Source: Candidatus Nitrospira allomarina
GTDB lineage: Bacteria > Nitrospirota > Nitrospiria > Nitrospirales > UBA8639
Assembly (NCBI RefSeq): GCF_032050975.1
Contig: NZ_CP116967.1
Span: forward strand, 1,361,001 to 1,425,000
Length of the DNA: 64,000 nucleotides
Direction: 5' to 3'
The translations under genes and the position numbers were made by a program. Below are positions 11,305 to 44,040 of this stretch, one piece after another (the stretch's first letter is position 1; each line of letters starts with the position of its first letter). The notes under the pieces were generated by a model. The model made no database searches, was not told the DNA's origin, and saw only the letters and a list, made by a program, of their open reading frames with translations.

Positions 11305-12015
11305 TTAAATTGGTTTAAATCCTGCCTCATTCATTTTCTCAGAAAGTGTTTTAGCCTCCTTCGCCTCGTTATCCATATAAGCTAAAGGTGAGCTATGCAT
11401 TCTTGGAATGGCAATTTCTCTATTCCAAAGCTTAACCCTTCCTTCCTTATCTTTCCTTTGAAGCATTGGAAATAATTCCATGTATACTCTAGGGGCAATA
11501 CCCACAAATGAATGGCATGAAACAAAGCCAGATGTTTCAATATTTTGATCTACCAAAAATGAATCTAAATGAAATTGAGAAGCAAGACTTTTTGCATAGG
11601 GTTCTATGTATACAACTTTTCTTATACCGGAGGCAACAATATGCCTGGCACAATCATGGCAAGGGAAAGTTGTGGTATATAAAGTACAATCTTTAATTGA
11701 AATTCCCCTCCGTGCTGCACTTAACAAAGCTTCCATTTCAGCATGAGTAGCTCTTCCAAATTCAATTAAATTAAATAATCTGGTTCTTTTCAAAAGTGGC
11801 GTGGCTCTCTTGACTAATTCGGGGATTTCTAAATTTTTTAAATTTTCTCCTAACCATTCATTTTCTTTTAGAACTTTAAGTATCTCCGCAAAAGTTTCTT
11901 CCTTTTTCCTATCCCTGGTATCCCAACCACCATGAAACTCTCTAGCATCATCAGAATCTTCCCCCCAATACAATCCTCCACCAAATTTTGGGACATCATT
12001 AGTACCCACTGCCAA
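11305..12015 (-). CDS. avcD: AvcD-type anti-phage deoxycytidylate deaminase, C-terminal part (split gene)
   Basis: A 236-residue segment carrying a zinc-dependent CMP/dCMP deaminase domain. The catalytic set is His91-Ala-Glu93 (HAEMEALLSAARRG) and Cys119/Cys122 (TTTFPCHDCARHIV), followed by KVVYIEPYAKS. In AvcD proteins this domain follows a P-loop-like NTPase domain in one chain of about 520 residues and deaminates dCTP/dCMP to starve replicating phage. Here the NTPase half is a separate reading frame just upstream. Removing one of two tandem TTAA units in ATTAATTAATAAT (about 12027-12039) would rejoin the halves as ...GAAIINNEGDILAVGTND. The TTG start used here has a good ribosome site, AAGGAG five bases upstream, so the deaminase half may still be made on its own. 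Confidence 0.85.
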   Translation of the reverse strand: MAVGTNDVPKFGGGLYWGEDSDDAREFHGGWDTRDRKKEETFAEILKVLKENEWLGENLKNLEIPELVKRATPLLKRTRLFNLIEFGRATHAEMEALLSAARRGISIKDCTLYTTTFPCHDCARHIVASGIRKVVYIEPYAKSLASQFHLDSFLVDQNIETSGFVSCHSFVGIAPRVYMELFPMLQRKDKEGRVKLWNREIAIPRMHSSPLAYMDNEAKEAKTLSEKMNEAGFKPI

Positions 12016-12031
12016 GATATCTCCTTCATTA

Positions 12032-12850
12032 TTAATTAATTATTGCGGCCCCTACTTGGCGTCCCAATTCAGCAGAACGATATTCTGCAGCTTTAGCGTG
12101 AAACATGGCGTATTCCATACGGGTAGGTGTCAAGAACGTATTTCCAAAAAGAATTTCAATAAATCTTAGAATTGAATCTTTTATGTGGCTGGCTTTTTGC
12201 GCATCTACAAAAAAATCAGCCTCTGGGAAAGTGTCCCTAACCTTTTGTCCATAGTCTTTATATAGATCCTCCTCGTCTCGGTTTACCAATGTTTCAGCAT
12301 GTTCACGATACTTTGATACATTGCTGTCATAGTGAGAGGAAGCTAATTCACTGGCTAGGTTTTGAATTCTTGTTTCACGGGGTGTATATGCTGAAATTAG
12401 AAAAAAACTCTTTCCATAAACTTTTCTAAAAAGGGAAACTTCTTCCGGACGCTTAAAAGATCTAAGAATAAAGGCTGTATTAGACAAAGGTTTATAAGGT
12501 TCATTAGGCGTCCTGCAATCTTCATTATTAGGGGCTCTATGTTTTTCACGAATGGACACAATTGCCATACGAGCCAATCCATCTTGAAGTTTTAATTTTT
12601 CACGAAAATCATCCCCTGCATTCATATGCTCTCTATATCGCTGTAATTTGGCGGTTTCTTCCAAAGACCTATATTGGTCGATTTGGTGAATCTCTTCGAT
12701 GATATGAATAATCCTAGAATCATAATTAACAAATTCAAGTGCTTTAATAAGCCCACGACTTACTGCACCGAGATCTGTCCCGATTGCACCTGCCAACCCA
12801 AAAAATAGTTCAGGCCCGACTTTCTTTTGATCAGTTTTTAAAGGATTCAT
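12032..12850 (-). CDS. avcD: AvcD-type anti-phage deaminase, N-terminal P-loop-like domain (split gene)
   Basis: A 272-residue segment that opens with LFFGLAGAIGTDLGAV near residues 16-31, the glycine-rich nucleotide-binding loop found at the start of AvcD/dCTP deaminase fusion proteins. It ends with YAMFHAKAAEYRSAELGRQV, which in intact homologues continues directly into the deaminase domain. Here a TAA stop follows IIN because of a 4-bp tandem duplication. The NTPase half is thought to gate deaminase activity during infection. Known loci carry a small inhibitory RNA (AvcI) next to avcD. The AT-rich 12851-13100 upstream of this gene is the place to look, though I cannot identify an RNA there by eye. 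Base composition is clearly more AT-rich than the flanking core genes, consistent with transfer. Confidence 0.8.
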   Translation of the reverse strand: MNPLKTDQKKVGPELFFGLAGAIGTDLGAVSRGLIKALEFVNYDSRIIHIIEEIHQIDQYRSLEETAKLQRYREHMNAGDDFREKLKLQDGLARMAIVSIREKHRAPNNEDCRTPNEPYKPLSNTAFILRSFKRPEEVSLFRKVYGKSFFLISAYTPRETRIQNLASELASSHYDSNVSKYREHAETLVNRDEEDLYKDYGQKVRDTFPEADFFVDAQKASHIKDSILRFIEILFGNTFLTPTRMEYAMFHAKAAEYRSAELGRQVGAAIIN

Positions 12851-13567: not shown

Positions 13568-13736
13568 CTAGGAGCCTGTCGGACTTAGGATGAATCGGCT
13601 GCAAAAGTGTCTAAGCGGTCCATATTTCGCCGCTTTCTTGGACCATGGTCCCACTATGGGCCAGCGAAATCGTCAAAATCTGCCCTCGCTCAGCCGCTTT
13701 TTCGCTCTCGATCCCCCAAGTCCGACAGGCTCCTAG
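13568..13736. mobile_element. Short inverted-repeat (MITE-like) element with CTAG ends
   Basis: A perfect 19-bp inverted repeat, CTAGGAGCCTGTCGGACTT at 13568-13586 and its complement at 13718-13736, encloses about 131 bp without a convincing gene. The outer CTAG at each end fits a 4-bp target duplication, as made by some IS families (for example IS5-group elements target CTAG-like sites). The right CTAG contains the aroK stop codon. A decayed relative lies at 42344-42439. No transposase is present, so it would be non-autonomous. Confidence 0.75.
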
Positions 13737-14239
13737 GTCGAAATGTGGGAAAGAATGGCATCAGCAATTTGGTCCGGGGAAATTTGGTCCGTTGGAATGA
13801 CATGATCGGCAGCGGCTTGGTAGTGAGGTTTGCGAATCTCAAGAATTTCTTCGATTTCTTCTACGAACGTTTTGGTGCCTGACAGAGAGGGCCGCTGCGT
13901 ATCGCCGGAAATCCGGCTGGCAATCGTTGAAACTTCGGCAGTCAGCCAGAAAATCTTTCCATTCTCTTTAAGCATTTTGACGTTTTCTTCCTTCAGGATG
14001 AGTCCCCCGCCCGTGTCGATAACCAGATTGTCCTGGCCCGTGAGCTTTTGACACATCTGCGTTTCCAGCCCGCGGAAATGATCCCACCCGAAGTGCTCGA
14101 TAAGCTGAGGAATGGTTTGCTTGGCCTCCTTGACGATTTCCTCATCAGTGGAGATGACTCTTCGTCCGAGACGTTGACCCAGGATTGTTGCCACAGTGCT
14201 TTTCCCCGTTCCTCGGTATCCTATGAAGACAATATTCAT
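13733..14239 (-). CDS. aroK: Shikimate kinase
   Basis: A 168-residue shikimate kinase that phosphorylates shikimate in chorismate biosynthesis. The Walker A motif is GYRGTGKSTVA (residues 7-17). STDEEIVKEAKQTIPQLI follows with the substrate-binding Asp, then FRGLETQM and the glycine-rich DTGGGLIL, and the lid/adenine region SGDTQRPSL. The length is typical. The stop codon TAG sits inside the terminal CTAG of the inverted-repeat element that abuts the gene, so the insertion leaves the protein intact. aroE, the preceding pathway step, lies 244 bp upstream on the same strand. Confidence 0.96.
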   Translation of the reverse strand: MNIVFIGYRGTGKSTVATILGQRLGRRVISTDEEIVKEAKQTIPQLIEHFGWDHFRGLETQMCQKLTGQDNLVIDTGGGLILKEENVKMLKENGKIFWLTAEVSTIASRISGDTQRPSLSGTKTFVEEIEEILEIRKPHYQAAADHVIPTDQISPDQIADAILSHIST

Positions 14240-42343: not shown

Positions 42344-42439
42344 TTGGGAGTCTGTCGGACTTTGGGAATCGATAACGAAAATTTCCCCTCGCTTAGGCAC
42401 TTTTGGAGCCTATTCATCAGAAGTTCGACAGGCTTCTAG
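42344..42439. mobile_element. Decayed copy of the CTAG-ended inverted-repeat element
   Basis: The ends GAGTCTGTCGGACTT and AAGTTCGACAGGCTTCTAG are imperfect complements and match the 19-bp ends of the element at 13568-13736 with a few changes. The interior is shorter and different. Its right CTAG contains the opgD stop codon, exactly as the other copy does for aroK. Confidence 0.65.
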
Positions 42440-44040
42440 TCATAGCTAAAGGGCAGGTATTGGTAGAGCCAGGTTTCGGTCAGTGTTCGATCTCCAAGTT
42501 TGAGAAAGAGGCGGAGATTGACCGGCTCCTTGCCTTCCACATAGAGATCGAAAAACGCTCGCCAGCTCCTCGTGCCGACTATCTGCAGCGCGTATTCGTT
42601 GTCGATTCGGCCCTTGGACGTGCTGATGACCGGTTGAACCTTGTCCAGCTTTTCGACCTCATTGAGCGGCCCACCCTCGAAGTCGATCACGAATTTCCGG
42701 CCGCCTTTCGGGCGCGGCTGCCCGGGAATACCTGCATTGCCGAGTCGGGTATGGTTGACCCGTGCGACGGCTTCTGACAGATAGGGCTCGGTTGCCACCC
42801 AATGGAGCCGGTAGGCGTAGTGCCACTCGGAGCCTGCCTGCACCGGTTCCTTCGGCAACCAATAGATGACGATGTTGTCATGGATTTCGTCGTCAGTCGG
42901 AATTTCGATCAATTGGATTTCGCCTTCGTTCCACTCACCTATTGGCTCGATCCAGACACTCGGTCTCCGGTCATAGAATACACCGTCATCCTCATAGTGA
43001 TAGAAGGCGCGATCCCTCTGCAGCAGCCCAAAACCCTTGGGGTTCGTGTCGACGAAGCTGTTGGTCATGACGGATGTCGGGTTATTGAGTGGGCGCCAAA
43101 TACGTTCGCCTGCGCCCGTCCACATCGCCAGACCGTCGTTGTCATGAATTTCCGGCCTCCAGTCCCTGATCTGATGGCGATTGTTCTCGGCATACCAGAA
43201 CATACTGGTCAGCGGAGCGACCCCCAGGCGTTTGATGTCCTGGCGTGGATAGAGGTTGGCGTCGATATCCATGACAATCTGCTGGTTTTTAATACAGACC
43301 ATGCGAAAAGCCCCAGTCACACTCGGCCCATCCAGCAGGGCATAGATCACATATTCCTTGCTGTCCGGGGCTCCTGGTTCCAACCAAAATTCGGTGAATC
43401 GTGGAAATTCCTCCGGAGTGGGGAGGGCCGGGTCGATCGCCACACCCCTTGCCGAAAGGCCGTATTGATTGAGTTCCCCGGAGCTGCGGAAATAAGAGGC
43501 GCCAAGAAACGCCATCCAATCAGTGGTCGCTCCTGGTCCATCTTGGAGGCGAAAGCCGGAGAAGCCAAGATCATCTGGGAAGATTTGGCCGAGACTGGTT
43601 CCGCTGAAGGTGTAGTACTCGGAACGGTAGAGAATTTCTCTGGATTGACCATCCTCAAGCGCATGAATCTTTACAGGCACTTTGAAATACCGGCCAAGAT
43701 GGAAGAATTGAGCAGGAAAATTCACGCTACCGTCCTCGCCCAGGCCCCGCTCGCGTTTAAAGACGATCTGCTGAAAGGCGTCGTAGTCGATCGATTCCAA
43801 GACTTCGTCATGACGGACCAGCGGCTCCTCATAGGGCCTGGTGGCCATCGTCTTGGCGTGTTGCTTCAGCTCATCAAATGAGAAAGGTTTGGCCGTACCA
43901 AACTGGATTCCGTAAGTCCCGGCTCTACTTCGCGCCTGCGGGAGTCCAGCCAAGGCACCAAGAGCGCCCATCACCAAGAGGAACTGTCGGCGATTCAGCA
44001 TATCCGGGCCACCGGATATGCTAGGAGATTCGAGGGGCAA
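42436..44040 (-). CDS. opgD: Periplasmic glucan biosynthesis protein (OpgD/MdoD-like)
   Basis: A 534-residue exported protein with a twin-arginine-type signal (NRRQFLLVMGALGALAGLP). The body matches the OpgG/OpgD family: FSFDELKQHAKTMATRPYEE, YRSEYYTFSGTSLGQIFPDD, GVAIDPALPTPEEFPRFTEF, DDGVFYDRRPSVWIEP and the C-terminal Ig-like domain. The Tat-type signal favours OpgD over OpgG. OpgD trims or shapes osmoregulated periplasmic glucans after OpgH synthesis; no opgH is in the window. The TTG at 44040 is preferred because GGAG lies five bases upstream; an ATG 13 codons later lacks a ribosome site. The stop TAG is part of the inverted-repeat element's terminal CTAG. Confidence 0.92.
   Translation of the reverse strand: MPLESPSISGGPDMLNRRQFLLVMGALGALAGLPQARSRAGTYGIQFGTAKPFSFDELKQHAKTMATRPYEEPLVRHDEVLESIDYDAFQQIVFKRERGLGEDGSVNFPAQFFHLGRYFKVPVKIHALEDGQSREILYRSEYYTFSGTSLGQIFPDDLGFSGFRLQDGPGATTDWMAFLGASYFRSSGELNQYGLSARGVAIDPALPTPEEFPRFTEFWLEPGAPDSKEYVIYALLDGPSVTGAFRMVCIKNQQIVMDIDANLYPRQDIKRLGVAPLTSMFWYAENNRHQIRDWRPEIHDNDGLAMWTGAGERIWRPLNNPTSVMTNSFVDTNPKGFGLLQRDRAFYHYEDDGVFYDRRPSVWIEPIGEWNEGEIQLIEIPTDDEIHDNIVIYWLPKEPVQAGSEWHYAYRLHWVATEPYLSEAVARVNHTRLGNAGIPGQPRPKGGRKFVIDFEGGPLNEVEKLDKVQPVISTSKGRIDNEYALQIVGTRSWRAFFDLYVEGKEPVNLRLFLKLGDRTLTETWLYQYLPFSYD

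Follow-up and report, generated by a model that had tools for sequence, protein, structure and literature searches.

MITEs are commonly seen as empty remnants that insertion sequences leave behind. The ERIC, RUP and Correia-type MITEs are similar in size to the element described here, with TA duplication, a hairpin fold and intergenic spread, and are to our knowledge limited to narrow host groups. MITEPsy1 of Pseudomonas syringae is a 100-bp element inserted at CTAG or YTAA sites, with a reported 4-nt duplication and the ends GGAAGGTCTGAAAAAGCC, and is related to ISPsy2 (PMC3189936). The insertion sequence IS1272 is reported to replace inverted repeats without producing a target duplication (PMC5678879), and REPs are 20-40 bp long and carry GTAG or CGTC tags (PMC3733652).

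The 64-kb window, i.e. the whole stretch of DNA that was analysed, carries a 163-bp MITE-like hairpin element at 13571-13733, assigned to the minus strand, on which its fold is favoured, and recognised by its inverted repeat, copies in the host genome, folding and a covariance model. Its left (13571-13586, plus strand) and right (13718-13733, minus strand) terminal inverted repeats, GGAGCCTGTCGGACTT, are perfect 16-bp ends lying within a perfect 19-bp inverted repeat (13568-13586 and 13718-13736) that starts and ends with CTAG, as a sequence-only reading of this DNA had reported and as the coordinates confirm. That reading had also taken the right CTAG as the stop of aroK (shikimate kinase; 13733-14239, minus strand; identified by its ORF and orthologs in 15 relatives), correctly, since the gene ends in ACC TAG on the minus strand, with CTA at 13733-13735 on the plus strand. 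Flank statistics and empty-site orthologs identified the two copies of the TA target duplication at 13569-13570 and 13734-13735 (no strand assigned), the right of which, together with element base 13733, forms the aroK TAG on the minus strand. The element matches its own reverse over its full length, folds with z-scores of -8.9 and -8.5, and on the minus strand matches the covariance model with 156 bits. Exact element ends occur at only two places in the window, both in this element, while five matches with up to three mismatches were found compared to 1.55 expected. The 163-bp element has the features of a MITE, being short, non-coding and multicopy, with terminal inverted repeats and a target duplication.

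A second, internally deleted copy of 90 bp lies at 42347-42436 on the plus strand (covariance-model match, E 1.1e-6), and its right end supplies the TAG stop of an opgD-like gene (42436-44040, minus strand; ORF and orthologs). The claim that this decayed copy repeats the arrangement at aroK therefore stands for the stop codon but not for the other side, where the flank is TTGG, indicating that the left CTAG has been lost. Elsewhere in the window, two adjacent ORFs of 272 and 236 aa (11305-12850, minus strand) align with consecutive segments of a single PADLOC dCTPase model (148-371 and 377-552, respectively), a frame change separating them; the pair is a broken or frameshifted anti-phage gene of the dCTP/dCMP deaminase type, split in two.

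The 4.55-Mb host genome carries full 169-bp copies at four places, two short copies and one remnant, and 17 of the 60 relatives, almost all from the same genus, carry copies, with up to 27 matches per genome, showing that the inverted repeat is not a chance occurrence. The covariance model added three decayed hairpin cousins with other ends in the host genome (G000; 2451917-2452073, 631610-631769 and 812750-812906), whose terminal sequences differ, e.g., GGAGGCTGTCTAATATT. At one further locus (L132, 2004-2465) a hairpin copy is split by a second, unrelated insert of approximately 300 bp. A plasmid search with the window copy gave no match, and the same search with a gammaproteobacterial copy identified two Pseudomonas plasmids.

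Flanks could be compared for 75 usable copies, in which the left/right tetramers were CTAG/CTAG in 39, TTAG/CTAG in nine and CTAG/CTAA in seven, with GTAG/CTAG, CTAG/CTAC and GTAG/CTAA observed once each and the remainder decayed, whereas TTAG/TTAG and CTAA/CTAA never occurred. Since the variation is confined to the outer base, the inner G and C are part of the element ends, which leaves TA as the duplicated target in place of CTAG. CTAG had been proposed as both target and duplication; it holds as the target, while the mismatched TTAG/CTAG and CTAG/CTAA flanks reduce the duplicated part to TA. The pooled targets read YTAR, with CTAG in 43 of 61, and no consensus beyond YTAR was found in them.

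In most aroK orthologs that lack the element, the stop codon occupies the same position, usually as TAG and sometimes as TAA, and is followed directly by the downstream sequence. In close relatives the empty site is a single CTAG followed by the sequence that here follows the element, as in G018, which has TCGATCTAGAGCGTTCACTC where the host has TCGACCTA-element-TAGACCGTTCACTC. The insertion was missing from the relatives in which the aroK 3' end was recovered, and no inverted repeat lost on insertion was found at the empty aroK sites. Orthologs of opgD have a native TAG stop; the stop codons of both genes thus predate insertion. Because the element begins with G, insertion at the TA of a stop restores TAG, and insertion into the aroK stop codon leaves the protein unchanged. 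The opgD-like gene of one relative (L381 in G011) contains in-frame TGA and TAG codons.

Scanning one genome per species for an exact 18-mer recovered at least 119 stretches. The matches listed, which include several isolates, come from Gamma-, Beta- and Deltaproteobacteria, Verrucomicrobia, Bacteroidota, Spirochaetes and others. Of the 58 paired cross-phylum copies, 45 are 161-163 bp long. The covariance model gave dozens of matches per genome and more than 100 in several, as rough counts in which both strands can score and candidates were limited to about 147. The interiors differ in sequence, and most share loop motifs separated by variable stems; on the minus strand these are AGCGA / GCAG, CGAGGNCAG / ATGGNCCG and GAGGCGAATAG / CTATTTAACGAG. 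A 182-183 bp cousin (L413-L416) from a related family in the same order carries the ends GGAGCCTGTCCGACATT and shares its first loop, adjoining the ends, with the 161-163 bp hairpin.

In the cross-phylum alignment, 93% of cells pair on the favoured (minus) strand, with compensatory change in 40 of 56 pairs and a covariation score of 0.519; shuffles scored 0.188 ± 0.008 and slid structures no more than 0.142. The end helix has to be discounted, as the search fixed the ends, and the signal is carried by the inner helices. The plus-strand fold, which was analysed first, was set aside on its consensus energy (-46 against -68 kcal/mol for the favoured strand, from slightly different sequence sets) and on wobble counts, the stem mismatches read on that other strand being A.C in 105 cases and G.T in 37 (27 of 34 unequal columns, p 8e-4, an optimistic value since the sequences are related). 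On the favoured strand, single transitions within the genus gave 126 wobbles compared to 57, and compensatory double changes within the genus numbered only 15. The mismatch asymmetry suggests selection on one folded strand, either RNA or single-stranded DNA.

Covariation of this kind might also arise neutrally, if template switching during replication kept the arms of an imperfect hairpin complementary without any function. Such correction is known to act on long quasi-palindromes, and the element matches its own reverse from end to end. Neutral correction should, however, erase mismatches, whereas here the unpaired loop motifs recur in different phyla with higher conservation than the stems (0.75 compared to 0.66), the length stays at 161-163 bp and the mismatches favour one strand. 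Hence, we regard a purely neutral origin as somewhat improbable, although it is the most serious of the alternatives; hairpin-templated repair could be part of the source of the covariation but should not preserve mismatched loops. Selection probably acts on a folded single strand, either a transcript or single-stranded DNA, for spread of the element or for its tolerance by the host.

Based on reconstructed empty sites, stop codons were the site of 20 of 71 independent insertions in the genus, and most copies are intergenic. When only CTAG targets were considered, 14 of 43 insertions lay at stops compared to 20 of 560 background CTAGs from about 0.8 Mb (odds ratio 13, p 5e-9), and two of the 43 compared to 303 of the 560 lay inside genes; with in-gene sites left out, the proportions were 14 of 41 and 20 of 257 (odds ratio approximately 6, p 2e-5). 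Gene calls in this comparison came from a simple codon-usage caller, which makes the numbers approximate, and three thresholds agreed. A mixed-phylum sample showed the same pattern, with 13 of 44 insertions at stops compared to 10 of 150 CTAGs from the same loci (odds ratio 5.9, p 1.7e-4; p 0.011 without in-gene sites). In contrast, four high-copy genomes showed no enrichment, stops accounting for six of 38 insertions and seven of 35 background sites. The expectation that copies lie at stop-codon CTAGs above chance was thus borne out in the genus and the mixed-phylum sample and failed in the high-copy genomes, and the idea of a CTAG-targeting element landing at gene ends captures the genus enrichment but only a minority of its insertions.

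As the share at stops equals the local CTAG background in the high-copy genomes, selection and CTAG availability account for much of the distribution. CTAG scarcity in genes combined with purifying selection explains the general pattern, and the extra enrichment in the genus goes beyond that account. The insertion machinery itself could prefer stop codons or gene ends, such as terminator hairpins, in place of copies merely surviving there. The sixfold odds ratio over non-coding CTAGs in the genus would fit such a preference, as would IS1272, a member of the IS1182 family that targets inverted repeats (PMC5678879). Yet intergenic copies in the genus favoured 3' no more than 5' gene neighbourhoods, the targets have no sequence preference apart from YTAR, the high-copy genomes lack the enrichment and the empty aroK sites had no inverted repeat to lose, making a built-in preference unlikely. 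In an Extensimonas genome (G066; L403 and L419-L435), 18 loci of 3 kb retain only 10 CTAGs besides the 18 insertion sites, and CTAG availability may therefore limit copy number.

The closest candidate autonomous partners, judged by matching ends and CTAG sites, are IS1182-family insertion sequences. One of 1497 bp (L262) carries an IS1182 transposase (PF13751, E 4e-15) between GGAGCCTGTCGGA ends inserted in CTAG, the junction reading CTA-GGAGCCTGTCGGA, and an Endozoicomonas element of 1552 bp (L267), assigned to IS1182 from its ends and the N-terminal part of its transposase, has the same GGAGCCTGTCGGA ends and a TA duplication in CTAG. A more distant match is an IS1182 element of the same genus as the host (L360), which is flanked by TA and has the related ends GAGCCTGTTG / TGAGCCTGTTGCACAAAC. 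No IS1182 transposase turned up in the host genome by protein or PF13751 searches, which makes present-day mobility there unlikely or dependent on a lost partner. Autonomous insertion sequences with the same ends, as anticipated, exist in the form of L262 and L267, but none was found in the host. All solo ends that were checked in the genus for an autonomous copy turned out to be truncated, deleted or interrupted hairpins. From the shared ends we infer that an IS1182 transposase mobilises the hairpin element.

Mobilisation by a transposase of IS630/Tc1-mariner, the classic TA-duplicating family, would also fit a TA duplicated within CTAG, as IS630 itself is known to prefer CTAG, and DDE_3 genes of the IS630 type are present in 11 of 21 genomes of the genus. 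However, none of the 24 DDE_3 loci is enclosed by paired ends of the element, their own TA-flanked repeats differ, the host genome has no DDE_3 gene and the ends match IS1182 elements instead, and we therefore consider this family an improbable source. One DDE_3 remnant (L164) is located between two stray hairpin ends, which are separated by 2.8 kb and also enclose unrelated genes.

Least convincing is the idea of a domesticated 3' hairpin acting to terminate or stabilise transcripts of the preceding genes, which the very stable fold directly after a stop codon might suggest. It is highly improbable: the orientation relative to genes is unbiased (seven same, 12 opposite), implying that selection does not act on the fold as a host-gene 3' UTR; the hairpin is followed by TAGACCGTT and not by the T run of an intrinsic terminator; and the aroK insertion is missing from relatives with a recovered aroK 3' end. 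The simplest account would be a selfish element whose fold aids its own mobility or host tolerance.

Taken together, we favour with reasonable confidence a MITE mobilised by IS1182 at the TA of CTAG, with an interior kept by selection on a single-stranded fold. Such a non-autonomous element would be moved in trans by an IS1182-family transposase recognising GGAGCCTGTCGGA-type ends and inserting at the TA of CTAG, which it would duplicate. With G as the first base of the ends, TA followed by G would remake TAG at both junctions, so that insertion into a C-TAG or T-TAG stop keeps the protein unchanged. Copies would then build up between genes and at stop codons, because CTAG is rare inside genes and copies that break genes are lost. 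The interior is a conserved 161-163 bp hairpin and not a leftover of an insertion sequence; its loops, kept across phyla, and its covarying stems are the reason why a folded single strand is probably under selection. We more tentatively suggest an undescribed mobile structured family, present in many bacterial phyla, that conserves a strand-specific 162-nt fold of RNA or single-stranded DNA, with ends adapting to different IS1182-type transposases; the balance at present lies somewhat against this broader proposal, under which the element would be a selfish one carrying a functional fold in place of a gene. Length, loops and covarying stems kept across phyla at high copy number suggest selection on a folded product. 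Moreover, the TA-plus-G design offers a simple account of a harmless transposon inside a stop codon and turns the scarcity of CTAG into a limit on copy number that can be measured.

As a MITE the element is of an ordinary kind, but its combination of IS1182-like ends, a TA target within CTAG, fixed length and strand-specific cross-phylum fold was not found in Rfam or the papers searched. The window copy had no Rfam match up to E 10, and for eight loci from elsewhere the only hit overlapping the element was a sub-threshold microRNA hairpin (28 bits, cut-off 100). A literature search by topic found no match to this combination, and a 12-nt part of the end sequence occurs in three papers that, in their accessible parts, do not appear to describe such an element. 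ERIC, RUP and Correia-type elements appear from their descriptions to differ in sequence and are known from narrow host groups, compared to the many phyla observed here. IS630-family elements with a CTAG preference likewise duplicate TA in CTAG, whereas none of the IS630 transposases found was bounded by the element's ends. REP/BIME sequences with RAYT transposases are palindromic, extragenic and present in high copy, like the hairpin element, which differs from them in its long terminal repeats and TA duplication. MITEPsy1 is similarly short, non-autonomous and inserted at CTAG but differs in size, duplication and ends (PMC3189936), and IS1272 reportedly makes no target duplication, in contrast to the duplicated TA of the hairpin element (PMC5678879). 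The IS1182 insertion sequences differ from the element in that it has no transposase and no visible homology to their interior, yet L262 and L267 share with it the GGAGCCTGTCGGA terminus and the TA duplication in CTAG, and L360 has related ends and TA flanks, as in the element.
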